From Sedimenticola selenatireducens (GTDB lineage: Bacteria; Pseudomonadota; Gammaproteobacteria; Chromatiales; Chromatiaceae): DNA of 64,000 nt. Location: assembly GCF_007625115.1 (NCBI RefSeq), contig NZ_VMNH01000007.1:62001-126000 (forward strand). Reading direction: 5' to 3'. Positions 48,963 through 59,010 of this stretch are shown one piece after another. Position numbers and translations under genes: made by a program. The notes under the pieces were generated by a model that was not told the origin of the DNA, did not search any database, and saw nothing but the letters and a program-made list of their open reading frames with translations. Position 1 is the stretch's first letter. Each line of letters opens with the position of its first letter.

Positions 48963-49399
48963 GTTTTTAAGGTCTCATAAACATAAACAGCCTACCCTGT
49001 TGTGGTGGGCGGTGGGCCTACCGAAAAGCGGTCATAACTAATTGAAAACTAGCTAATAAATAACGCAATCAACAATTGCTGGATGTTGAGTTTGATATAA
49101 AGCCACAGCATATCATAATGCACCCAAGTGAGATTCCTGCATTAATTGTGACTCTTAATGGTTTCTTGATCTTAAGAATTTAATCGCAAATTGTCTTAAG
49201 ATACCTTTGTGTAAAAATCTGATACCTTAATAAAGTCGGAACGGCTGCCTGTTCCAGACTCACATAATAAAAAAATATTACCTAACTGATTGATCAATGT
49301 GCAACGGCTAGGATTATAAATACCATGTTTCTCGGGAACGCACCTGGCTTGTAGGCAAGGTGTCACCCTGGCTGGGTTAAGGTGGTTCTGGAGGATGTA
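48963..49399. other. Leader region of the three-component sensor operon
   Basis: 437 bp between the esterase and the binding-protein gene. It contains a 9-bp inverted repeat ATCTTAAGA/TCTTAAGAT (49169-49202) and a GGAAC-type hairpin (49238-49255). No short gene called. The promoter of the sensor operon must lie here but was not resolved. Confidence 0.5.
49169..49202. repeat. Inverted repeat ATCTTAAGA ... TCTTAAGAT
   Basis: Perfect 9-bp arms 16 nt apart; inside, ATTT/AAAT pair again, so a long AT-rich stem is possible. It lies ~200 bp upstream of the binding-protein gene, and could be an operator. Confidence 0.6.
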
Positions 49400-50221
49400 T
49401 TGAGGAAATTCTTTCACTGGTTTGTATTGATTCTGCCATTTGTTTACAGCACTACTTTGTATGCAGAATCTGGTCACAAACACCTTCGCTTTGGTGTATT
49501 ACCCTTGCAAAGCCCAACAAAACTGGCCGGTATGTTCCTGCCTTTGACCGAGTATCTGGGTAACCATCTAGGACGTCCGGTGCAGTTTGTCACCAGTAGC
49601 AGTTTTACCAGCTTTATGGAAAAGGTCGCACAGCGTAAGTATGACATCATCTATCTTAATCCGATGCTCTATAGTCAATCCCGCCCTTATGGCTATAGGG
49701 TTATAGCCAAAGTAGCGTCTGAACCCTTCACCGGTATTCTGGTAGTGCGTAAGGCAGGGCCAATTCAAACACTCTCAGCCGATTCACTTCCAAATGGACT
49801 GCGCATTGGATTTCCCGATCCGGGTGCCTTTGCGGCAACGGTGTTGGTCCGTGGATACCTTGATTCTATTGGTATAAATGTAGACAGACAGATGCAAGTA
49901 CAGTATTTCGGTTCGCAGGATTCTGCAATATTGGCGCTCTATAATGGGCTGGTTGATATTATCGGGACATGGCGTCCTTCACTACGTTCGATGCCCGCGT
50001 CAGTACGCGCGGATCTGCAGATCATAGCAGAGACCCCACCTCAGCCACAGATGCCCATCGCGGTAAGGGATGACCTGCCACCGGAAGATGTTAGACGGCT
50101 CTATCTTGCGTTGACGGGGCTTGCAAAAACAGAGCAGGGACAATCGATTGTCCGGCGCATGGGTTTTAAGCGAGGCTTTGAGTTTGCTGCAGATGAAGAG
50201 TATCTGGAGGTGGGCCAGTGA
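49400..50221 (+). CDS. PhnD/AioX-like periplasmic binding protein, sensory
   Basis: 273 aa. Signal peptide (FFHWFVLILPFVYSTTLYA) then a PhnD-like substrate-binding fold: LRFGVLPLQSPTKLAGMFLPL, YDIIYLNPMLY, GILVVRK, GFPDPGAFAATVLVRGYL, VDIIGTWRPSLRS. No ABC transporter genes follow; a kinase and sigma-54 regulator do, as in AioX-AioS-AioR, where the binding protein senses an oxyanion. TTG 49400 is preferred: GGAGG is 5 nt upstream; the GTG at 49382 has no such site. Its stop overlaps the kinase start (GTGA). Ligand unknown, perhaps a sulfur oxyanion, by context. Confidence 0.85.
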   Translation: MRKFFHWFVLILPFVYSTTLYAESGHKHLRFGVLPLQSPTKLAGMFLPLTEYLGNHLGRPVQFVTSSSFTSFMEKVAQRKYDIIYLNPMLYSQSRPYGYRVIAKVASEPFTGILVVRKAGPIQTLSADSLPNGLRIGFPDPGAFAATVLVRGYLDSIGINVDRQMQVQYFGSQDSAILALYNGLVDIIGTWRPSLRSMPASVRADLQIIAETPPQPQMPIAVRDDLPPEDVRRLYLALTGLAKTEQGQSIVRRMGFKRGFEFAADEEYLEVGQ

Positions 50222-51681
50222 CAGGTATCTGCTTGCACTCTAATACGCCCGTGGTTGGTCAGGGTAGGAGCTGGTTTCCCCGGGCCTTTCATACCCTACG
50301 TGTACGGTTAATCATTTCGGTAGCGCTGGTTCATGTGGTGCTGATGGGGCAGTTTACCTGGGAGGCTGTTGACCGACAGTCACATGAACTGCGTCAGGAG
50401 ATGGTCAATCAGGGGCGCTCGCTTGCCAGTCTAATGGTGGTAGCCTCTACCAACGCCTTGTTGTCAGAGGATCTTGCCTCACTCGCAGAGGTTACGCGCC
50501 GGGTGGGTGAGCGAGAAGATGTCTCTTATGGTGAGGTGGTGGATGTTCGGGGATTTGTCATGGCTAGCACGCGAGAGGGGCGGGTAGGCCGAAAGGTAGG
50601 TCCCATGATTGAACAAAATGATCAGTTTCCACTGAATGAAGATGATCGGATACTTGATCTGCGGGATGAAGTTATTATTGATAGTAGTCGGGTGGGACTG
50701 ATCCGGTTGGGTTTATCCACTAAAAACCTTGAGAATGCACTTGCTGAGACCCGTAATCGCGGTATTCAGTATATTCTGTTGGCATTGGTCATAGGTAGCA
50801 TCGCGGCATGGCTTTTGTCTCTTGCTGTTACCCGAAATCTGCACGATCTGACTTTGGCGGCGAAGCGGATCGGTGAGGGTGATCTGAATGCTCGGGTGGA
50901 TGTTCGTAGTCAGGATGAAACCGGAACCCTGGCACGTGCTTTTAATCTGATGGCTGCTTCACTGCATCGTTCTTCCCGTGAAATAGAGTTGGAGCACCGC
51001 AAGCGCACGGATGCTGAACGCTTGGCTTGTGTTGGAGAGATGGCGGCATCAATCGCACATGAGATTCGTAATCCGATGGTCGCACTGATTAATTCGGTAA
51101 AACTGCTAGGCAACGAACAACTCTCAGCTGAAGATCACAAGGCGGTATCTGATATCGTCAATACGGAGTCTAATCGTCTGCAACGAATTCTGAACGATTT
51201 TCTAATGTTTTCCCGGTTGCCTGATGCAAAGTTGGAACAGGGTGATCTGAAGGTGTTGATTGAGCAAACCATTGGGCTGGTCAGTCAAGATCCTCTCTAT
51301 GCAGATGGTATATCTTTCGATTGTCGGTATGAGGATGATAACAGCTGCCTGTTTGATTCTGACCTAATGCGTCAGGTGTTAATCAATTTGATGTTGAATG
51401 CGATGCAGGCGATATCGGGTGAAGGGAAACTGACAATCCGGTTGCAGCAATTAAACGGTCGGCTTAATGTGAGTATTGTGGATAACGGTCGAGGCATACC
51501 CGCCGAGGTGATGCCTGAGATAAATAAACCCTTTTTTACCAGCAGAAAAGAGGGTACGGGTCTGGGCTTACCGGTAGTGCAGCGGATTCTGGCGCAACAT
51601 GGCACGGCGCTCACCATCACCAGCCGGGAAGGCTCTGGCACTGAAGTGGCATTTGACTTGGACGTGGAAAGCAATGGGTAA
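50218..51681 (+). CDS. Membrane sensor histidine kinase (AioS/NtrB type)
   Basis: 487 aa. TM1 ~23-42 (LIISVALVHVVLMGQFTWEA), periplasmic sensor ~45-175, TM2 ~180-200 (YILLALVIGSIAAWLLSLAV), HAMP ~200-255, H-box ASIAHEIRNPMVAL, N-box LINLMLNAMQAI, and DNGRGIP plus GTGLGLPVV. The GTG start overlaps the stop of the binding-protein gene, so the sensor pair is made in step. Its stop overlaps the regulator start by 8 nt. The kinase likely reads the loaded binding protein across the membrane. Confidence 0.92.
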   Translation: MTGICLHSNTPVVGQGRSWFPRAFHTLRVRLIISVALVHVVLMGQFTWEAVDRQSHELRQEMVNQGRSLASLMVVASTNALLSEDLASLAEVTRRVGEREDVSYGEVVDVRGFVMASTREGRVGRKVGPMIEQNDQFPLNEDDRILDLRDEVIIDSSRVGLIRLGLSTKNLENALAETRNRGIQYILLALVIGSIAAWLLSLAVTRNLHDLTLAAKRIGEGDLNARVDVRSQDETGTLARAFNLMAASLHRSSREIELEHRKRTDAERLACVGEMAASIAHEIRNPMVALINSVKLLGNEQLSAEDHKAVSDIVNTESNRLQRILNDFLMFSRLPDAKLEQGDLKVLIEQTIGLVSQDPLYADGISFDCRYEDDNSCLFDSDLMRQVLINLMLNAMQAISGEGKLTIRLQQLNGRLNVSIVDNGRGIPAEVMPEINKPFFTSRKEGTGLGLPVVQRILAQHGTALTITSREGSGTEVAFDLDVESNG

Positions 51682-53011
51682 TGTATTGATTGTTGATGAT
51701 GAGTTTTCCATTCGCAAGACCGTAAGTCTGCTGTTGAAGGCAGAGGGTTTTGTCCCATTCGAAGCGGCTGGAATTGATGAGGCGCTGGCTTATTTTGATA
51801 CTCAACCCATTGATCTGATGATCACTGATCTTCGATTGGGTATGGAGAGTGGAATTGATCTGTTGGTCAAGCTGCAAGAGCGTGGACTGAATACTGAAAG
51901 TATTATCATGACAGCATTTGGGACAATCGAAACAGCCGTGAAAGCGATGCGCCTGGGAGCCTATGATTACCTGACCAAACCGATCAACCCAGATGAACTG
52001 ATGTTGCGAGTCAGAAAAGTGCTAGAGCGTAAGGCACTACAAGAGGAAGTTAGACGGCTGCGTCAGGCTCTTGATGGTCGAGAGCATATCCGCTCTATTG
52101 TTGCGGCCAGCGCTGCTATGCAACAAGTGCTGGATGTGGTGGCCCGTATTCAAGAAAGAGATATACCTGTTTTGATTACGGGGGAAACGGGTACTGGAAA
52201 AGAGGTGATTGCTCAAGCTTTACACCGCACCAGTGTTCGAGCTGAAAAGCCGTTCGTGCCGATTAATTGTTGTACGCTACCTGAGGATATCCTCGACTCG
52301 GAACTGTTTGGTCATGTGAAGGGGGCTTTTACCAGTGCGAACGGTAACAGGGAAGGGCTGTTTCAACAGGCGGATGGAGGAACGCTGTTTCTTGACGAGG
52401 TAGGCGACGTCAGTCCGCGTCTGCAGGCGAAGCTATTACGAGCTCTTCAGGAAGGGGAGATACGCCCGGTTGGTGGTAATAACATAATAAAGGTAAATGT
52501 CAGAGTAATAGCGGCAACAAACCGGGATTTGGAACAGATGGTGGACAAGGGTGAATTTAGAAGTGACCTGCTATTTCGACTCAATGTGCTACCGATCCAT
52601 CTGCCTGCCTTGCGTGACCGGCGTGACGATATCCTGCCGTTAGCTTGGCATTTTGTAGATCAACTTCGTGAGCGTCTTGGTCGTGATGATCTTGGCCTCT
52701 CGTCTTCTGCACAAGAAAAACTTCAACAGTATGATTGGCCGGGTAATGTACGGCAGTTGGAAAACATTATCGAAAGAAGTTTTGCACTGTTCCCTGGGCC
52801 GCTGCTGGATGCAAATCAGATTATCATTTCCACACCAGGAAAGGCGCTCATCAGCGATGTACGAGAAGAGGCTACATTGACCATTGCGGATCTTGAGGCC
52901 AGACATATCCGTGCGGTGCTGGAAGCAAATGATCATAATCAAGTCGCTGCTGCACGTGTCTTAGGTATCAGTCGTTCGACCCTTAGGCGCAAAATGAGTC
53001 AAATGATGTGA
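51674..53011 (+). CDS. Sigma-54-dependent response regulator (NtrC family)
   Basis: 445 aa. Receiver ~1-120 (LIVDDEFS, phospho-Asp in LMITDLRLG, Lys in LTKPINP), AAA+ ~145-375 with Walker A GETGTGKE, Walker B GGTLFLDEVG and the sigma-54-contact loop GAFTSA (canonical GAFTGA, Gly to Ser), R-finger region LRDRRDDI, and a Fis-type HTH at the C-terminus (NQVAAARVLGISRSTLRRK). ATG 51674 is the family start inside the kinase 3' end. A -24/-12 promoter with palindromes lies ~100 bp downstream, in front of the sulfur operon. Confidence 0.94.
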   Translation: MGNVLIVDDEFSIRKTVSLLLKAEGFVPFEAAGIDEALAYFDTQPIDLMITDLRLGMESGIDLLVKLQERGLNTESIIMTAFGTIETAVKAMRLGAYDYLTKPINPDELMLRVRKVLERKALQEEVRRLRQALDGREHIRSIVAASAAMQQVLDVVARIQERDIPVLITGETGTGKEVIAQALHRTSVRAEKPFVPINCCTLPEDILDSELFGHVKGAFTSANGNREGLFQQADGGTLFLDEVGDVSPRLQAKLLRALQEGEIRPVGGNNIIKVNVRVIAATNRDLEQMVDKGEFRSDLLFRLNVLPIHLPALRDRRDDILPLAWHFVDQLRERLGRDDLGLSSSAQEKLQQYDWPGNVRQLENIIERSFALFPGPLLDANQIIISTPGKALISDVREEATLTIADLEARHIRAVLEANDHNQVAAARVLGISRSTLRRKMSQMM

Positions 53012-53017
53012 TTCATT

Positions 53018-53073
53018 TTGCAACAGGCCTTGTTCAAATTAGATCAGAATAAGTACTTGTTAAAATATTTAAC
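53018..53073. promoter_or_regulatory. Candidate activator binding palindromes upstream of the sulfur operon
   Basis: Two dyads: TTG-CAAC-AGGCCT-TGTT-CAA (53018-53037) and GTTAAA-ATA-TTTAAC (53059-53073). Relative to a start near 53138 they are centred about -110 and -72, the normal reach for a sigma-54 enhancer protein. The first also overlaps the zone where the regulator transcript might end. Confidence 0.4.
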
Positions 53074-53110
53074 CGCATGTAATCCATAGTAAATATCGAT
53101 CAATCCTGTT

Positions 53111-53126
53111 TGGCATTTACCTTGCA
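53111..53126 (+). promoter_or_regulatory. Sigma-54 (-24/-12) promoter
   Basis: TGGCAT-TTACC-TTGCA matches TGGCAC-N5-TTGCW with one change; the invariant GG (53112-53113) and GC (53124-53125) are exactly 10 nt apart. Transcription should start near 53137-53138, ~27 nt before the first yeeE ATG. The sigma-54 activator gene is immediately upstream. Confidence 0.8.
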
Positions 53127-53164
53127 ATCCTCCCTTTAAAATAATAACTGCAGCGGAGGAGTGC

Positions 53165-53656
53165 ATGGAATTTTTCAAGAAAACCTTCGACCCGGTAATT
53201 TCGCTAGCGATTATCTCGGTTCTGAATATCTTTCTATTTCTAACAGTGGGTGCCTGGACCGTGGGCGGTGGCGAAACCATGATGACGGGCCTTATCGCAG
53301 AGTTTTTTCTGGGCGATGAGCTGGCTCGCATCCCTTTCTGGGATCTTGTGTTTAAGCCGGATGCGGGTTACTGGAAGATATACATCAGCCTCGGCATGCT
53401 TTTCGGTGCACTGATTGGAGCGCTGTTGAGTAAGGAGTTTTATTGGCGCGTACCCAAACATCTTTCTGAGTGGGTCATGATCACGATCGGTGGCTTGCTT
53501 ATGGGTGTGGGTATCCGCCTCGCTTTTGTCTGCAATGTGAGTACCTTTTTTGGCCTAACCCCTCAAATGAACCTCGGTGGTTATTTATCGATGACCGGCA
53601 TTATTGCTGGTGCCTGGGTGGGTTCAATCATTTACAAAAAAGTACTGGAGAGTTGA
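53165..53656 (+). CDS. YeeE/YedE-type sulfur transport protein, first half
   Basis: 163-aa membrane protein with about four TM segments. Half-size member of the YeeE/YedE (sulfur transport, DUF395) family: GGLLMGVGIRLAFVCNVSTFFGL holds the position and one Cys of the family's GxxxxGGC-type pore segment, here divergent. Full-length relatives (TsuA) import thiosulfate through a chain of cysteines. GGAGGA is 4 nt before the ATG. It is the first gene after the sigma-54 promoter; the next gene supplies the second half. Confidence 0.85.
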   Translation: MEFFKKTFDPVISLAIISVLNIFLFLTVGAWTVGGGETMMTGLIAEFFLGDELARIPFWDLVFKPDAGYWKIYISLGMLFGALIGALLSKEFYWRVPKHLSEWVMITIGGLLMGVGIRLAFVCNVSTFFGLTPQMNLGGYLSMTGIIAGAWVGSIIYKKVLES

Positions 53657-53657
53657 T

Positions 53658-54302
53658 ATGTCGGTAGTTGGTCAATGTCTTGCGGCGTTTATATTCGGCT
53701 CTATTGTTGGTTTTCTGGTGCAACGCTCGCGCTTTTGTAATACAGCAGCCCTGCGTGATGCCATGCTTTTTAAAACCTATCGCAATACAAAAGCGTTGCT
53801 GGTCACTATGATGATCCTCACGGTTGGCTTTACCACTTTCATGACCTTTGGAGATGGCCATCCCCTACAGTTTGATGTGGGAATCAATCAGGTTATCGGC
53901 CTATTCTTGTTTGGTATCGGTATGGTTTTAGCTGGGGCATGCACTGTTTCTACCTGGGTTAAGGCGGGTGAAGGTAACGTGGGTGCCATCTGGGCGCTGC
54001 TGTTTACCTTTATCGGTATGTTCCTCTTCTCCCTTGTCTGGTCTTACACCTATTGGCCGCCGGCGTCGGCTACCATGACTGGCGAGCCCAATTTGACGGG
54101 TCTTCAGTTTGGTTTTGCCAATGCAGCGACTTTGCAGGAAAAGACCGGCATACCGGCACTCTTCTTTGGTCTAGTGCAAACAGCGGTGCTCTACGCGATC
54201 TATCAGGCTATTTTGCGCAAGGAACGCAGGATCGCTGAACAACGTGCACCCGCCAGTAAGTCGGTATTGGAAACTCATATAGTCGTTGAAAGTAAATCCT
54301 GA
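53658..54302 (+). CDS. YeeE/YedE-type sulfur transport protein, second half
   Basis: 214 aa, about five TM segments. Contains SRFCNTAALRDAML near the N-terminus and GMVLAGACTVSTWVKAGEGN mid-chain, the Cys-bearing motifs of the family, then a hydrophilic tail. ATG 53658 is one base after the previous stop. Together with the first half it should form one split thiosulfate/sulfane-sulfur channel (PmpA/PmpB-like). The following TusA is the classical acceptor of imported sulfur. Confidence 0.88.
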   Translation: MSVVGQCLAAFIFGSIVGFLVQRSRFCNTAALRDAMLFKTYRNTKALLVTMMILTVGFTTFMTFGDGHPLQFDVGINQVIGLFLFGIGMVLAGACTVSTWVKAGEGNVGAIWALLFTFIGMFLFSLVWSYTYWPPASATMTGEPNLTGLQFGFANAATLQEKTGIPALFFGLVQTAVLYAIYQAILRKERRIAEQRAPASKSVLETHIVVESKS

Positions 54303-54328
54303 ACACTACTCAACAGGAGAAAAATAAA

Positions 54329-54640
54329 ATGGGACTTTTTGGACGTAAAAAAGATAAAGATGCGGAGCCTGCAGGCCCAACGGGTGAAGTGACACTTGAT
54401 GATGGCAATACCTATGCTGTCAGCCAGATTGTGGATTGTATTGGTGATTCCTGCCCAAGGCCGCAGTTGATGACCAAAAAGGCGTTGTCAAATGCAGCAG
54501 CTGGAGACGTCATTGAGGTGCGTATTGACAATCCTACTTCAATGGAGTCGATACCCCCAATGATGCCTGAGCTTAACAGTACGCACTTGGGTACCCTCAA
54601 GGACGATCGCTATTGGCGTGTCATCGTTCGTCGGCAATAG
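54329..54640 (+). CDS. TusA-like sulfurtransferase with N-terminal extension
   Basis: 103 aa. The TusA fold starts at about residue 30 (VSQIVDCIGDSCPRPQLMTKKAL), with the active Cys in the CPxP motif and a second Cys five residues before. It has ~25-30 extra N-terminal residues (MGLFGRKKDKDAEPAGPTG), basic then acidic, which might bind the membrane or the transporter. TusA passes persulfide sulfur in the cytosol. GGAG lies 8 nt before the ATG. Confidence 0.88.
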   Translation: MGLFGRKKDKDAEPAGPTGEVTLDDGNTYAVSQIVDCIGDSCPRPQLMTKKALSNAAAGDVIEVRIDNPTSMESIPPMMPELNSTHLGTLKDDRYWRVIVRRQ

Positions 54641-54649
54641 GATTATTCG

Positions 54650-54859
54650 ATGACAAGGGACTACATAATAATGCTGGCATTCTCGATTTTGGTGGGCGTA
54701 ATTTCAATTGTTTCGCTCTCTTATATCGCTATAGCACAGCCAGATTATCTCCGTTCTGATCGTGATGGGGTGCCATTCTTCACGCCTCAGGTGGTTAATC
54801 CTGAAGGCGGAGAACCGCTGGATATGGGTGAGCTGATTCGCCACTACAAGGGGGAATGA
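54650..54859 (+). CDS. Small single-TM protein (sulfur operon)
   Basis: 69 aa. One N-terminal TM helix (~5-28, IIMLAFSILVGVISIVSLSY), then a ~40-residue tail probably in the periplasm, ending EPLDMGELIRHYKGE. The tail motif [ED]-L-[IV]-x-[HY]-Y recurs in the 88-aa protein two genes on. No family recognised. Sited 9 nt after tusA and 1 nt before the 30-aa gene. Confidence 0.75.
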   Translation: MTRDYIIMLAFSILVGVISIVSLSYIAIAQPDYLRSDRDGVPFFTPQVVNPEGGEPLDMGELIRHYKGE

Positions 54860-54860
54860 T

Positions 54861-54953
54861 ATGTCACTTGATCTACAAACCTGGATTCAACTGGGTATGT
54901 TTGTACTTTCAATGACCGTGCTTTATTTCAGCATGATCAGCGATTCATCTTGA
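54861..54953 (+). CDS. 30-aa single-TM microprotein (sulfur operon)
   Basis: Encodes MSLDLQTWIQ followed by LGMFVLSMTVLYFSM and ISDSS: a single hydrophobic helix with short polar ends. GGGGGA lies 5 nt before the ATG, and the neighbours on both sides are 1 nt and 12 nt away, so it is a regular operon member that standard gene callers may miss because of its length. Probably a small subunit or stabiliser of a membrane complex. Confidence 0.65.
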   Translation: MSLDLQTWIQLGMFVLSMTVLYFSMISDSS

Positions 54954-54965
54954 GGAGGTCACAGC

Positions 54966-55232
54966 ATGCGTCGAGAGATAGTGGTTTTTAATGTACTCAG
55001 CGTATTGGTTACGTTGGGCATCAGTGCAGTGCTTTTTTCCTATGCAGCCATACCGGAGGAGAAGCGTCTTGCCGCCAGTCAACCCAAGCCAATGGAAGAT
55101 TTTGCCGATGTGGATCTGGGCGCGGACTTTGGGCAGATTCCTGTCGTTGATCTAGTGGGTTATTACCTTGAGAACCCACCCGTAAAAGCCACGGGTTCGG
55201 CACCGGTTAAAAGACATTTTGGCGGATGTTAG
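54966..55232 (+). CDS. Small single-TM protein with C-terminal Cys (sulfur operon)
   Basis: 88 aa. N-terminal TM helix (~6-28, FNVLSVLVTLGISAVLFSY), an acidic tail, PVVDLVGYYLENPP (compare ELIRHY in the 69-aa protein), and a terminal GGC. The end cysteine could carry sulfur or a lipid/thiol link; this is inference. GGAGG is 6 nt upstream. No family recognised. Confidence 0.75.
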   Translation: MRREIVVFNVLSVLVTLGISAVLFSYAAIPEEKRLAASQPKPMEDFADVDLGADFGQIPVVDLVGYYLENPPVKATGSAPVKRHFGGC

Positions 55233-55236
55233 GGCG

Positions 55237-56082
55237 ATGAAACGGTTTATTCAGATAGGCCGATTATGTCTATTTGCTGGCTTGATAACAGTCACACTTC
55301 AGGCAACAGCAAGTAGTGTGCAGTTTATTGAGCAAATACCGAATGGTGACGGATTACGGGTGATTGATACGCGCCCGGTTGCAGAGTGTGAGCAACAGAG
55401 TATTAAGGGGGCGCGCTGTTTCTCCGTCGGTGATTTACTTGGTCATAGTGGTCGTTTGCCAAGCCAGCGCGACATAACCTGGATGTTGGGAACACTGGGG
55501 CTAAGCGGTTCTGAAACGGTTGTAGTCGTCGGTTACCCGGGAGATGCACGCGATTTTATTGCCGGGGTACTCTATCTCGCTGGTCAGAGAAAGGTATTGA
55601 TTCTGAGTCCTTCGATGAATCAGATGATTACCTCAAAGAGTATCCCGCTGGCGTCAGGTCAGCGGCGTAGTATGAGTCGTGAATTGCACTATATCGCTCA
55701 TCCACGTGATGCACAGATCGTTCTTTTGCGGGAGTTACAGCAACGTTTAAGCGGGAACCAATCCTTGCGTCTGTTAGATGTACGTAGTCATGAGGAGTAC
55801 TGGGGAGAGCTTATAAAGGGCTGGCGTGGCGGCCATATACCAGGAGCAGAGCACTGGTCGCAAAAAAATACGCAACCGATTCGGTTGACACGTATGGATG
55901 TTGACACGGTTGTTTATGGACGCGGGCCACTCGATTCGATTGCTTCCTTTGTGCGGTTGCAGACGCAATGGACGCAACCGGCGCAAGTTTTTATAGAGGG
56001 TTGGCGTGCCTGGAGTGCTGATAGTCAACTGCCAGTTGATGCAGAAAGTTTTAACGAAAAAAAGATGCTGACTGATTCCTGA
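55237..56082 (+). CDS. Periplasmic tandem rhodanese-like protein without catalytic Cys
   Basis: 281 aa. Signal peptide (LCLFAGLITVTLQATAS), then two rhodanese folds. Domain 1: LRVIDTRPVAEC ... TVVVVGYPGDARDF; domain 2: LRLLDVRSHEEYWGE ... DTVVYGRGPLDSIA. At both positions where an active rhodanese has Cys (pattern CxxGxR), no Cys is present. It may bind sulfur compounds or act as a scaffold, not as an enzyme. ATG 55237 follows the previous stop by 4 nt. Confidence 0.75.
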   Translation: MKRFIQIGRLCLFAGLITVTLQATASSVQFIEQIPNGDGLRVIDTRPVAECEQQSIKGARCFSVGDLLGHSGRLPSQRDITWMLGTLGLSGSETVVVVGYPGDARDFIAGVLYLAGQRKVLILSPSMNQMITSKSIPLASGQRRSMSRELHYIAHPRDAQIVLLRELQQRLSGNQSLRLLDVRSHEEYWGELIKGWRGGHIPGAEHWSQKNTQPIRLTRMDVDTVVYGRGPLDSIASFVRLQTQWTQPAQVFIEGWRAWSADSQLPVDAESFNEKKMLTDS

Positions 56083-56136
56083 TAAGTGACAGGTTGGAAG
56101 CACAATAAGCCTTTTGGCATAAGAAAGGAGGTATGA

Positions 56137-56427
56137 ATGAGTTTGCTTTTTATAGTATCGACACCAGGAGCGGCCCGGTTACTGTTGCCACTTATTTCGG
56201 CGTGTAAAAGGAAGGGTACACGCTGGAGTTGTTTTTTTACTAATGATGGCGTCAATAATTTATCTGAGCCGGGAATGAAGGAAGCGGCCTGCTGCGCGGA
56301 ACGGGTGGTGGTATGTGAACATTCATGGGCTCGGTTTATGGGCGATACACCTTGTCCGGTAGAACTGGGCAGCCAAACCCAAAACAGTATTATGGTGGGT
56401 GAGGCAGATCGGATTGTGAGTCTGTAA
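56137..56427 (+). CDS. Small DsrE-like protein
   Basis: 96 aa, soluble. Begins MSLLFIVSTPG, a beta strand and loop of DsrE/TusD type, then CKRKGTRWSCFFTNDGV (fits the FFxxDGV strand) and further Cys (EAACCAERVVVCEHSW, DTPCPVEL). Six cysteines in 96 residues is high. By analogy it may carry persulfide. AGGAGG precedes the ATG. Membership in the DsrE superfamily is judged from pattern and from the next two genes. Confidence 0.65.
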   Translation: MSLLFIVSTPGAARLLLPLISACKRKGTRWSCFFTNDGVNNLSEPGMKEAACCAERVVVCEHSWARFMGDTPCPVELGSQTQNSIMVGEADRIVSL

Positions 56428-56437
56428 GGGGATATAT

Positions 56438-56710
56438 ATGTCGAACAAGAACCTCGTTGTACTGGCGCGACGTGATCATGCTGAGGCCATGCGTGTGGCA
56501 GCAGGACTGACTATTGCAGGCCATGGCGTTCGTCTGATCTTTATGCGTGGTCCGGTGGAGGAGTCAGCGGAAAACATTGAGCAGGCGGAAACACTGGAGT
56601 TGTGTGATATCGAACCAGAAACGACGGTTCCAGGTCAGGAGATTCAGTACATCGACAGTGCAGGGCTTTCTCTTGCACTGTTAAAAGCAGACAGTGTCAT
56701 CAATCTTTGA
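56438..56710 (+). CDS. Small DsrE/DsrF-like protein
   Basis: 90 aa, soluble. KNLVVLARRDHAEAMRVAAGLTIAGHGVRLIFM is a typical DsrE-fold start (strand, helix, strand), here written in part only as the pattern VVLARxD..EAMRVAAGL; a single Cys (LELCDIE) follows. Likely partner of the genes on each side in a DsrEFH-like heteromer; not shown by sequence alone. Confidence 0.65.
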   Translation: MSNKNLVVLARRDHAEAMRVAAGLTIAGHGVRLIFMRGPVEESAENIEQAETLELCDIEPETTVPGQEIQYIDSAGLSLALLKADSVINL

Positions 56711-56726
56711 GGAGGCTGATTAAATA

Positions 56727-56912
56727 ATGAATATAGCTGTACTAAAGACAGGTTTGTTTCCCGATGCTGAAACGGTTGAAGCGGGAATAGATCATCTTTT
56801 ATCAAGTTGTAATCTGTATCTTTATGATGCAACACGTGACGACCTGACGGACAGTGATTGGGATCGAGTGCTTGATGAGATTTTGGTTGCCGAACGTCTG
56901 ATTGTTATCTAA
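56727..56912 (+). CDS. 61-aa DsrH/TusB-like protein
   Basis: 61 aa, soluble, much shorter than DsrH/TusB (~95-100 aa). MNIAVLKTGL, NLYLYDATRDDL and WDRVLDEILVAERLIVI suggest a shortened alpha/beta unit. One Cys (SSCNL). GAGGAGG lies upstream. Third of the trio, which gives the order E-like, F-like, H-like as in dsrEFH; the assignment is tentative. Confidence 0.55.
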   Translation: MNIAVLKTGLFPDAETVEAGIDHLLSSCNLYLYDATRDDLTDSDWDRVLDEILVAERLIVI

Positions 56913-56930
56913 AAAACCAGGAGGATGTAT

Positions 56931-57854
56931 ATGAATATTACAAAAAAAATCATGGGTGGGCTGGTACTGTTCGGTTTTTCTTCCATAACCTGGGGTGCTA
57001 CACCCTTGGTTGATGTGGATTGGATGAAAGCCAATAGCTGCAATGCTGATGTACGTGTACTGGATCTCAGAAACCCACTCGATGGAGGCTCTAAAACAGA
57101 TTATCTGCGGGCACATATACCCTGTGCAGTTCACACAGATTATCTCAAGGGTGGTTGGCGTACCGAGGTCAATAAAATACCGGGTCAGCTTCCCCCGACT
57201 GATAAACTGGAAAAATTAATTGGAGATCTTGGAATCGACAATCAGACCCATGTTGTGGTCTACCATGCGGGTAAAAATGCATTGGATCTTGGTAGTGCAA
57301 CCCGTGTCTACTGGACATTCAAGGTGCTAGGCCATGAAAACGTCTCTATCCTTGATGGCGGTCTGGCGGCCTATACCGCAGATAAAAAAAATCCATTGGA
57401 AAAGGGTAACATTACTCCTGATCCAAAAGCCTTCAAGTCCAAGTTGAATGAGGCACTACTGGCAACCAAGGACGATGTCAAAGTAGCATCAGGCAATGGC
57501 ATAACATTGATTGATAACCGTCCTACACACCAATATCGTGGAATTAATCGGCATCCCAAGTCAAAACGAAACGGTACCATTCCACAGGCCAGTAGTCTTC
57601 CTGAGAGCTGGTTGACGGTGAATGGTGGTGGTAAATTCCGTGATGTAGAGACCCTGAAGAAACTTTACCAGATTGCCAATGTGCCCGCCGAGGGTGAGTT
57701 CATCAACTTCTGTAATACCGGCCACTGGGCATCAGTCGGTTGGTTTGTCGGTAGTGAATTGATGGGTAATAAAAAATCACGCTTATATGATGGTTCAATG
57801 GTTGAGTGGAGTTCAGATGAAACTCTGCCGATGACTGAGGAAATCAAGCTCTAA
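56931..57854 (+). CDS. Periplasmic rhodanese (thiosulfate sulfurtransferase)
   Basis: 307 aa. Signal peptide (MGGLVLFGFSSITWGA), a non-catalytic rhodanese domain (VRVLDLRNPLDGG, HVVVYHAGKNALDLGSATR) and a C-terminal catalytic domain with FINFCNTGHWASVGWFV, the loop Cys intact, and SRLYDGSMVEW. Resembles SseA-type enzymes moved to the periplasm. ATG 56931 is chosen over 56925, since GGAGG is then 6 nt away. Its stop overlaps the cytochrome start by one base. Confidence 0.88.
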   Translation: MNITKKIMGGLVLFGFSSITWGATPLVDVDWMKANSCNADVRVLDLRNPLDGGSKTDYLRAHIPCAVHTDYLKGGWRTEVNKIPGQLPPTDKLEKLIGDLGIDNQTHVVVYHAGKNALDLGSATRVYWTFKVLGHENVSILDGGLAAYTADKKNPLEKGNITPDPKAFKSKLNEALLATKDDVKVASGNGITLIDNRPTHQYRGINRHPKSKRNGTIPQASSLPESWLTVNGGGKFRDVETLKKLYQIANVPAEGEFINFCNTGHWASVGWFVGSELMGNKKSRLYDGSMVEWSSDETLPMTEEIKL

Positions 57855-58483
57855 TGAGCCGATGGCTTATAGGATGGGTGGCCGGAATTATCTTGCTTTT
57901 TCCGGCCACTGTTTTTTCTGCAGGAGAACATCAGAGGCGATTCTCCGTGGAGATAGCCCTTCTCGCAGGTGATAGCAGGCTATTTCTCGAGGATGGTCTA
58001 TCAGCGGAAAAGCGTCAATGGATAGAAGGACGAATAATCAGCAGCAAAAATGTATTACCTCTGCTTGCACGTTACTATCTACAAGAGTCAGGGTATGAAG
58101 ACCCAGGTATATTGGTGCAGGCTGAAGCATTAAGTGGATATCCCGTTGGGTCCGATACATTGCAGCGGGCGATCAAGGAGATGAGTGAACGCTTTCCTAT
58201 CCAGTTCGCAGTTGATCTGAATAAACCGCTGGACTCATCGAGTAAGAGGCAAGTGAAATCAGACTATGAGGAGATGTGTCTGGGTTGTCATATTACGACT
58301 GCACAGGAAAGGTCTGTTGTCATAGGTGAATTTGGCACCTTTGCACGCTCTATGACGGATGATGAATGGTTGGCACGACTACTGGGTGGGTTACGAGGCG
58401 ACAGTTATACTGCGCTGGAAAACCCGTTCACTGATACTGAAATTGCGCGTTTTTTTCGTTATGTTAGAGACGAATTGCCCTAG
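57854..58483 (+). CDS. Periplasmic monohaem c-type cytochrome-like protein
   Basis: 209 aa. Signal peptide (WVAGIILLFPATVFSA), then ~120 residues with no known domain, and a single haem motif EMCLGCHITT (about residues 141-145); Met in RSMTDDEW may be the distal ligand. The haem sits in the last third, unlike short cytochromes c. Last gene of the operon, translated with the rhodanese (overlap of 1 nt), so it may take electrons from sulfur oxidation there. Confidence 0.75.
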   Translation: MSRWLIGWVAGIILLFPATVFSAGEHQRRFSVEIALLAGDSRLFLEDGLSAEKRQWIEGRIISSKNVLPLLARYYLQESGYEDPGILVQAEALSGYPVGSDTLQRAIKEMSERFPIQFAVDLNKPLDSSSKRQVKSDYEEMCLGCHITTAQERSVVIGEFGTFARSMTDDEWLARLLGGLRGDSYTALENPFTDTEIARFFRYVRDELP

Positions 58484-58566: not shown

Positions 58567-59010
58567 TTATATCTCTCGCAAGCACCCCCGCTGCTTTGGC
58601 ATGTGCACGCCAGTTTTTTTTACCGACCCCGCCACCTCTCGTAACAGTGTCATGGCCTTGGCTTTCTTAAAGCCCGCTGTTTGTCCAAAGGTGAGTAGAT
58701 CTCCAATTTCAAAATTATCACGTTTTCCATTCAGGCTCATCTGATGTCGGCTGGTCCATGCGCCACTAGGGTTGTAAGAGTAAGCCACATCAAATGCGGG
58801 TGAGGGTCGCCATTCGCCCTGTTTATTCATCAGAAAAGCGATGTTCTTCACGTGATCGTCGTGGTTGCGTGCCAGCACATTGAGGAAGGTACGGCGAATC
58901 TGTTGTTCGATATCTTCGATGGGTAGTGCAAGCAGTTGAATGGTCTGCACGGCCTGTTCATAGGCGTTGGCACCTGCCTGGTTAAAATCATGCAGCACAC
59001 GATCCGCCTC
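58567..59010 (-). pseudogene. Remnant of HipA-type kinase (C-terminal part)
   Basis: About 145 codons similar to the C-terminal domain of HipA serine/threonine kinases: VLARNHDDHVKNIAFLMNKQ (catalytic DDHxKN), PSPAFDVAYSYNP and HQMSLNGKRDNFEIGDLL. The N-terminal ~270 residues, including the P-loop, are missing, and no HipB-like gene is near. The homology breaks at ~59010 against a different gene fragment on the other strand. Confidence 0.8.

Follow-up and report, generated by a model that had tools for sequence, protein, structure and literature searches.

A conserved twelve-gene module of Sedimenticola selenatireducens as a candidate regulated route for sulfane sulfur towards the reverse-Dsr pathway

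Identification of the module

A stretch of 64,000 nucleotides from Sedimenticola selenatireducens (contig NZ_VMNH01000007.1, positions 62,001 to 126,000; called the window below) contains a run of twelve genes, at 53165-58483 and all on the (+) strand, which probably encodes an inducible route by which periplasmic sulfane sulfur reaches the reverse-Dsr (rDsr) pathway in the cytoplasm. The run is composed of a split YeeE, TusA, three small membrane proteins (m69, m30, m88), a double rhodanese (Rhd2), a DsrEFH-like trio, a second rhodanese (RhdA) and a cytochrome c, and three sensor genes, sbp, hk and rr, lie just upstream (Table 1). Successive gaps are 1, 26, 9, 1, 12, 4, 54, 10, 16, 12 and −1 nt. 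The open reading frame (ORF) coordinates thereby bear out the genes, order, strand and close spacing (−1 to 54 nt) claimed by an earlier reading made by a model from the letters alone, the original prediction. The source genome is 4.03 Mb long, with a completeness of 99.99%. Import of periplasmic sulfane sulfur, and its sensing, are described as poorly understood in the part of PMC11582611 available to us, and the module is a compact, conserved and testable candidate for moving this sulfur into the cytoplasm.

Conservation and distribution

The search for synteny in other genomes proposed with the original prediction was carried out, and the claim of a conserved module held. In the family of the source genome, rhd2 gave matches in 29 of 116 genomes. 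Eight were near full length, source included, and the others were short, weak matches to other rhodaneses. Five of the 8 family loci, on contigs spanning the run (L034-L038), hold all twelve genes in identical order, m30 included; L005 and L039 hold nine genes each, ordered as far as the contig ends. A scan of named genomes covered 112 relatives, of which 80 loci were analysed with gene profiles built from at most 8 sequences, with E loosened to 0.05 where the proteins are smallest; metagenome-assembled genomes (MAGs) are numerous among the carriers. The set was complete and ordered in 51 of these 80 loci, and ordered in 74 when partial loci are included. Among the six exceptions, L118, L144, L154 and L172 have a moved or extra rhodanese, L148 has an additional yeeE match and no dsrE match, and L153 is a short cluster of the YTD-like kind discussed below. 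Where the yeeE end was present (67 named loci), m30 was not recognizable in 3 and no cytc was found on the module strand in 2. A chance run of ORFs is ruled out, because synteny is conserved across genomes of three classes.

These classes are Gamma-, Beta- and Alphaproteobacteria. The complete module was found in named-strain records of S. selenatireducens, Sulfuriferula multivorans, Maritimibacter, Magnetovibrio blakemorei and Thiorhodococcus mannitoliphagus, and Rhodobium orientis is also among the carriers. The DsrF-like profile matched in 19 of 369 genomes of a class-wide sample and in 2 of 398 genomes of a phylum sample, both of the source's class, the source genome being one. The DsrF-like protein is 92% identical to that of an S. 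thiotaurini MAG and 89% to that of S. selenatireducens DSM 17993; in a tree of four concatenated module proteins, the nearest row is DSM 17993 (93% identical). Plasmid-borne spread was rejected, as the plasmid collection contained no dsrF or yeeE_N match. No recurring flanking partner besides dsrC and a ribbon-helix-helix (RHH) regulator was recognized (18 loci by eye, 10 proteins scanned).

Two single loci deserve mention. In Thiorhodococcus mannitoliphagus, the genes just downstream of the module encode a flavocytochrome c sulfide dehydrogenase flavoprotein (L098:8174-9469 (−)) and a protein with nine CXXCH motifs and a cytochrome b561 domain (L098:10105-12111 (−)). The module of L133, a Rhizobium sp. 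MAG, sits inside Thiobacillus modules in the tree at a very short distance; because of this grouping, the label or the binning of the MAG may be wrong.

A split YeeE next to TusA

Both YeeE halves match Sulf_transp (5.8e-21 and 4e-25), and they are encoded in swapped order, the C-terminal half first. Aligned to the solved TsuA of Spirochaeta thermophila, yeeE_C covers residues 6-128 and yeeE_N residues 240-324. The equivalents of three TsuA cysteines are kept, namely C27 (80/80 homologs) and C95 (81/81) in yeeE_C, and C123 (78/78) in yeeE_N; the TsuA numbers are those found in the accessible part of PMC11582611, Cys22 being counted off our alignment. With curated TsuA models, the halves score 27.4-67.2 bits against cut-offs of 400-645, which are full-length cut-offs that halves can hardly reach. 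TusA matches PF01206 (4.6e-17), with its CPxP motif in 83 of 83 homologs and F4 in 80 of 83, and scores 17 bits with the TsuB model (cut-off 147.5).

Rhodaneses, cytochrome and small membrane proteins

Rhd2 and RhdA both match the rhodanese family. Rhd2 had been called Cys-less, which is wrong: it has C11, C51 and C61, and what is missing are the two catalytic cysteines, replaced by Gly in 78 of 82 homologs at one position and by Ala or Gly in 74 of 82 at the other (Cys in one). All but one of the 82 homologs (81/82) retain C51 and C61. The label of active rhodanese given to RhdA agrees with its predicted catalytic residue, C263, present in 78 of 78 homologs. The cytochrome has a single CXXCH in 84 of 86 homologs, and homology and family searches returned no significant relative and no recognizable family. 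For RhdA and the cytochrome, signal peptides were assigned by visual inspection of the N-terminal sequences.

Neither m88 nor m69 matched a Pfam or NCBIfam family, and m30 gave a sub-threshold Pfam match only. A weak mutual likeness links m69 and m88 (hhalign probability 46.5). The m88 protein, with one transmembrane (TM)-like window, ends in Gly-Cys in all 82 unique homologs; these two are its sole invariant residues, in a pattern xGC that is mostly FGGC (53/82). Because of this one very strong conservation pattern, m88 is possibly a tethered, sulfur-carrying arm. In SoxYZ, the swinging arm is a conserved Cys on a flexible C-terminal end, within a GGCGG motif. The likeness lies in a conserved Cys at the C-terminal end of a periplasmic protein, m88 being periplasmic by proposal, whereas m88 lacks GGCGG, terminates exactly in Gly-Cys, is predicted to be membrane-anchored and belongs to no known family.

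The DsrEFH-like trio and described systems

The DsrE-like protein matches PF02635 below threshold (17.6 bits, cut-off 22.7); of 45 homologs, 15 match this family at E≤0.1. Its C60 is invariant (91/91) and stands in a VVC context, as in canonical DsrE (by eye). No Pfam or NCBIfam family was matched by the DsrF-like or DsrH-like proteins, for which AlphaFold2 gave confident alpha/beta models (pLDDT 95.9 and 90.4, respectively). The DsrH-like protein has no conserved Cys, C28 being present in 9 of 85 homologs only, and its profile found no partner among canonical DsrE, DsrF and DsrH profiles (the DsrH set, 40 sequences from 20 loci, may include strays). What makes the trio DsrEFH-like is its position, the cysteine of the DsrE-like protein and the weak profile matches reported below.

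The original prediction could not match the module to any described system. This did not stand, as the core is of the kind published as YTD or yeeE-tusA-dsrEFH type II (PMC13293266, PMC13047784, PMC12998232, each available in part). A YTD cluster comprises yedE, tusA and dsrE together with genes for two or three hypothetical proteins; among the strains of that study, it was complete only in Desulfobacterota and Nitrospirota (PMC12998232). Its last three genes were identified as DsrEFH type II, for which transfer from TusA to DsrE Cys67 (cable bacteria) and on to DsrC was obtained in vitro (PMC13293266). Type II was found in 985 genomes, mostly with reductive dsrAB (73.9%, not strictly defining); Pseudomonadota are represented in its subtype 1 and more often carry oxidative dsrAB (PMC13293266). 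The same trio, with a DsrH lacking Cys20, is described in PMC13047784. Published monomer predictions for type II resemble DsrF and DsrH of A. vinosum.

We concluded that the module is an expanded proteobacterial version of the YTD or yeeE-tusA-dsrEFH type II cluster, type II being compared here through its published description. Shared are a YeeE/YedE protein, TusA, a DsrE-like protein with one functional Cys and two small proteins barely similar to canonical DsrF and DsrH, all in one run. The two small trio genes fit CHP1 and CHP2 of YTD in position and size. With type II, the module shares synteny with yeeE/yedE and tusA, C60 as candidate counterpart of the functional Cys67, and a DsrH-like protein likewise without the conserved Cys20 of type I. 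The module differs from both by the split and swapped YeeE, by the two periplasmic rhodaneses, the cytochrome c and the three small membrane proteins, by regulators of its own, and by its hosts, Sox- and rDsr-bearing proteobacteria that mostly keep type I DsrE. While reductive dsrAB is usual with type II, the source genome has an oxidative-type dsrA/dsrEFH arrangement. Short YTD-like clusters with full-length YeeE, TusA and DsrE/F-like genes also occur in the source's class (L083, L085, L086, L088-L091, L153), some having yeeE flanked by two tusA genes.

Other YeeE-family systems are more distant. SoxT import of sulfur and the PmpA/PmpB proteins are described in the accessible part of PMC11582611; SoxT1/TsuA and PmpA/PmpB share with the route proposed for the module YeeE-family sulfur import with a TusA-like acceptor, and PmpA and PmpB are separate halves too. 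According to that source, these two proteins measure about 130 amino acids (aa), each with a single Cys, and no part in sulfur oxidation has been shown for them, whereas the module halves, of 163 and 214 aa, hold one and two conserved TsuA-type cysteines, lengths and residues that rule out PmpAB. In Desulfurivibrio dismutans, periplasmic sulfurtransferases co-located with YeeE are proposed to pass sulfur to it (PMC12142623). The proposed path from periplasmic rhodanese-type proteins to inner-membrane YeeE and TusA is the same, but the gene set described there differs, with no DsrEFH found and with a porin in place of the cytochrome and small proteins. Clam symbionts have a divergent soxY beside YeeE/D and dsrAB (PMC11237559, seen in part). 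No published account of the twelve-gene module was found in the literature searched, subscription papers and preprints lying outside the search, so that absence is not proven; a combination of split YeeE, rhodaneses, cytochrome and small membrane proteins is not mentioned in the accessible portions of the related papers, and neither are regulators of this kind beside it.

Two exchangeable regulators

The three sensor genes had been read as binding protein, kinase and sigma-54 regulator, and family matches agree. The Sbp protein matches the phosphonate-binding family (3.6e-48), its nearest solved relatives being, by name, phosphite, arsenate-respiration (ArrX) and phosphonate binding proteins. 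A PF12974-type domain senses tetrathionate in TtrS and was argued to fit thiosulfate (PMC5408782, on the TtrS/ThsS sensors, available in part). The module resembles TtrS/ThsS and ArrX in using such a domain as sensor, and differs from them in having a separate binding protein, kinase and sigma-54 regulator. The sigma-54 promoter claimed ahead of the run was recovered as TGGCATTTACCTTGCA, which ends 38 nt upstream of the first start codon, that of yeeE_N.

Among the 67 loci with the yeeE end, the sensor trio was on the module strand in 18, upstream in 15 and downstream in 3 (L100, L101, L118). A divergent gene for an RHH_4 regulator (PF13467 in all four scanned) stood beside the module in 34 loci, that is 34 of the 49 trio-free ones; one of these 34 also had dsrC. 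The remaining loci had dsrC alone (8) or none of these (7). Trio and RHH gene never occurred together (0/67); the chance of no overlap is 1e-7 assuming independent loci, which they are not. A strong sigma-54 site ahead of yeeE was present in 20 of the 22 unique loci with the trio, in 2 of the 35 with the RHH gene and in 10 of the 20 with neither, for a background of 29 in 4620 random windows from the same loci. RHH proteins have three invariant cysteines (37/37).

The sensor is thus one of two exchangeable regulators of the module, the other being the divergent RHH regulator. In the tree of four module proteins, regulator type changes at least 4 times (rows with no regulator left out), and regulators have therefore been exchanged. 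The view that the sensor controls the module was right as to the tie between them, because trio and sigma-54 site co-occur, and went too far if the sensor is taken as a fixed part. Synteny and the link between regulator and promoter together support a regulated, conserved module.

Sulfur oxidation genes of the carriers

Fifty carrier genomes, taken from the 80 loci for their long or intact modules, were tested for other sulfur genes. The counts were 45 for dsrA, 44 for canonical dsrE, 46 for soxB and 47 for DsrE2; those for soxB and DsrE2 are carrier counts without a background sample, with no claim of enrichment. The source genome has dsrA followed by canonical dsrEFH, the oxidative rDsr arrangement (rest of the operon by eye), and DsrE2 too. 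In the class sample, 118 of 369 genomes have dsrA, and so do 10 of the 11 that carry an rhd2-type module (Fisher p 7e-5, ignoring kinship); 6 of these 11 modules are complete, and 5 are cut by contig ends or lack rhdA or more. The gene was also present in 15 of the 19 DsrF-positive genomes.

In Allochromatium vinosum, the Rhd-TusA-DsrE2 and DsrEFH type I proteins form a persulfide relay toward DsrC and rDsrAB. This relay is not known to have a split YeeE or periplasmic parts. It shares persulfide transfer to DsrC/rDsrAB with the route proposed for the module, and relays of this type co-exist with the module in most carriers. A replacement of type I DsrEFH or of DsrE2 by the module was rejected, since both co-occur with it.

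Both dsrA and canonical dsrE were missing in 4 of the 50 carriers, and 3 of these have dsrC near the module. Of the 67 loci with the yeeE end, 9 have this gene at a distance of 0.4-2.7 kb from the module. Two such DsrC proteins (L123:5668-6003 (+) and L137:14187-14513 (+)) keep the first C-terminal Cys (KQACK/QVCK) and end in WSTG at the position of the second Cys in the DsrC of the source genome's rDsr operon. A second dsrA with no dsrB beside it (by eye) was seen in the source genome (L052:10145-11392 (−)) and, with similar neighbours, in a relative of the same genus (L053:9111-10388 (+)).

Proposed route and alternatives

The route that we propose is drawn from cysteines, gene order and co-occurrence. 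Periplasmic RhdA would obtain a sulfane atom, with thiosulfate, polysulfide or carriers of the SoxYZ type as its source. RhdA, or the catalytically dead Rhd2 by way of its Cys51/Cys61 pair, would then load the C-terminal Cys of m88, which would swing the persulfide to the split YeeE channel. By way of the three YeeE cysteines sulfur would reach TusA, which its N-terminal extension perhaps keeps close to the membrane; from there it would go to Cys60 of the DsrE-like protein, and finally to DsrC and DsrAB. The single-heme cytochrome may take up electrons upon oxidative loading of the arm or re-oxidation of thiols, a role that is guessed. Transcription would be switched on via sigma-54 by the oxyanion-binding sensor, thiosulfate or tetrathionate being the most likely ligand, and in other lineages by the cysteine-containing RHH regulator.

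A trans-membrane sulfur route appears to be the best reading, in view of the three TsuA cysteines, of TusA next to the channel and of carriers that have rDsr and Sox. It has nevertheless to face several observations. The complete genome G376 (3.4 Mb, 8 contigs) has the trio and the whole module and no dsrA; conversely, 108 of the 118 dsrA genomes of the class sample lack an rhd2-type module. As type I dsrE (44/50) and DsrE2 (47/50) are present in the carriers anyway, the module is not essential for rDsr. RhdA is absent from the module strand in 10 of 67 loci, 2 of which have a rhodanese on the opposite strand. Profile comparison with DsrEFH of rDsr operons is weak, pairing dsrE with DsrE at a probability of 34, over no more than the first 42 residues, and dsrF with DsrF at 28. 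In a profile search of the PDB, the dsrE profile found no DsrE chain and the dsrF profile no DsrF chain; Foldseek with the DsrF and DsrH models returned generic alpha/beta matches, with no DsrEFH chain among the best 50 and no match of any kind at E≤0.001. Thiosulfate did not yield persulfidated TusA or DsrEFH II of cable bacteria (PMC13293266, as far as available), and the literature searched held no expression, phenotype or biochemistry for the twelve-gene cluster.

Alternatively, thiosulfate might enter whole through the split YeeE and be cleaved on TusA, in line with the proposal for TsuA/TsuB; the role of the periplasmic proteins would then be limited to concentrating or protecting it, and the sulfur would still go to rDsr. 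The three conserved TsuA cysteines would suit this, as would the vicinity of TusA and the fact that the S. thermophila YeeE-YeeD fusion matches both YeeE halves and TusA. We find it unlikely, as it does not explain the pair of periplasmic rhodaneses, the cytochrome or m88 with its terminal Cys, and TusA scores less well with TsuB/YeeD (NF041048, 0.0036) than with models of YedF/TusA. A module for sulfur disproportionation, or for detoxification of sulfane sulfur rather than energy-yielding oxidation, seems distinctly improbable. YTD was proposed as a disproportionation marker (PMC12998232, PMC8780430), a role argued against in PMC13293266 (all three available in part), and cysteine-rich RHH regulators would suit a response to sulfane stress; the carriers are proteobacteria with soxB (46/50) and dsrA (45/50). 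As for an assimilatory or selenium-related system of the YedE/YedF type, the link to dsrA and soxB across classes, the DsrE-like trio and the neighbouring dsrC make it very hard to credit, even though YedF is the best NCBIfam model of TusA and both YeeE halves match YedE/FdhT, all far under cut-off, and S. selenatireducens respires selenate, to judge from the title of a reference.

Returning to the route from periplasmic sulfane sulfur to rDsr, a bolder form of it can be put forward tentatively, with doubt prevailing. The m88 protein might represent a new type of sulfur carrier: tethered to the membrane, it would act as an arm in the periplasm, and the persulfide on its C-terminal Cys would shuttle between the periplasmic rhodanese pair and the split YeeE gate; the module might then be a complete trans-membrane persulfide relay from Sox-side sulfur to cytoplasmic rDsr, with exchangeable dedicated sensors. 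The module offers for study a protein family with a terminal cysteine and two alternative candidate sulfur sensors. If the trio is type II, clusters of this kind would also be at home in Sox/rDsr sulfur oxidizers, beyond sulfate reducers and disproportionators.

Features of the locus

Table 1. Features of the module and its regulators (window positions; handles L135, L137 and L158 denote other loci)
Feature	Position	Strand	Description
sbp	49382..50221	+	PF12974 periplasmic oxyanion-binding-type sensor protein; relative of HtxB, ArrX, PtxB, PhnD
hk	50218..51681	+	membrane histidine kinase: HAMP, HisKA, HATPase_c; two TM-like windows
rr	51674..53011	+	sigma-54-dependent response regulator: receiver, Sigma54_activat, HTH_8
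sigma-54 (-24/-12) promoter-like site TGGCATTTACCTTGCA	53111..53126	+	matches consensus at 10/11 positions
yeeE_N	53165..53656	+	163 aa, C-terminal half of split YeeE/TsuA; C123 = TsuA Cys293
yeeE_C	53658..54302	+	214 aa, N-terminal half of split YeeE/TsuA; C27 = Cys22, C95 = Cys91
tusA	54329..54640	+	TusA-family sulfur carrier; MxLFG-like N-terminal extension
m69	54650..54859	+	small protein, single TM, no Cys, no family; weak likeness to m88
m30	54861..54953	+	30 aa, single TM; position conserved; 74 unique sequences
m88	54966..55232	+	single TM; final residue Cys (GC-COOH); no family; proposed tethered sulfur-carrier arm
rhd2	55237..56082	+	double rhodanese-like; N-terminal hydrophobic segment; no catalytic Cys; near-invariant C51, C61
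dsrE-like sulfurtransferase subunit	56137..56427	+	invariant C60
dsrF-like subunit	56438..56710	+	alpha/beta model, pLDDT 95.9
dsrH-like subunit	56727..56912	+	assigned from position and size only; alpha/beta model, pLDDT 90.4; no conserved Cys
rhdA	56925..57854	+	tandem rhodanese, catalytic Cys (CNTGHWA); signal peptide by eye
cytc	57854..58483	+	cytochrome c, one CXXCH; signal peptide by eye; no recognizable family
RHH_4 regulator, example	L135:6538-6843	-	
RHH_4 regulator, example	L137:6640-6942	-	
RHH_4 regulator, example	L158:4529-4822	-	

Directly after the module, a 143-aa ORF at 58567-58998 (−) matches the second half of HipA_C (1.6e-22), and is apparently the remnant of a HipA-type protein.

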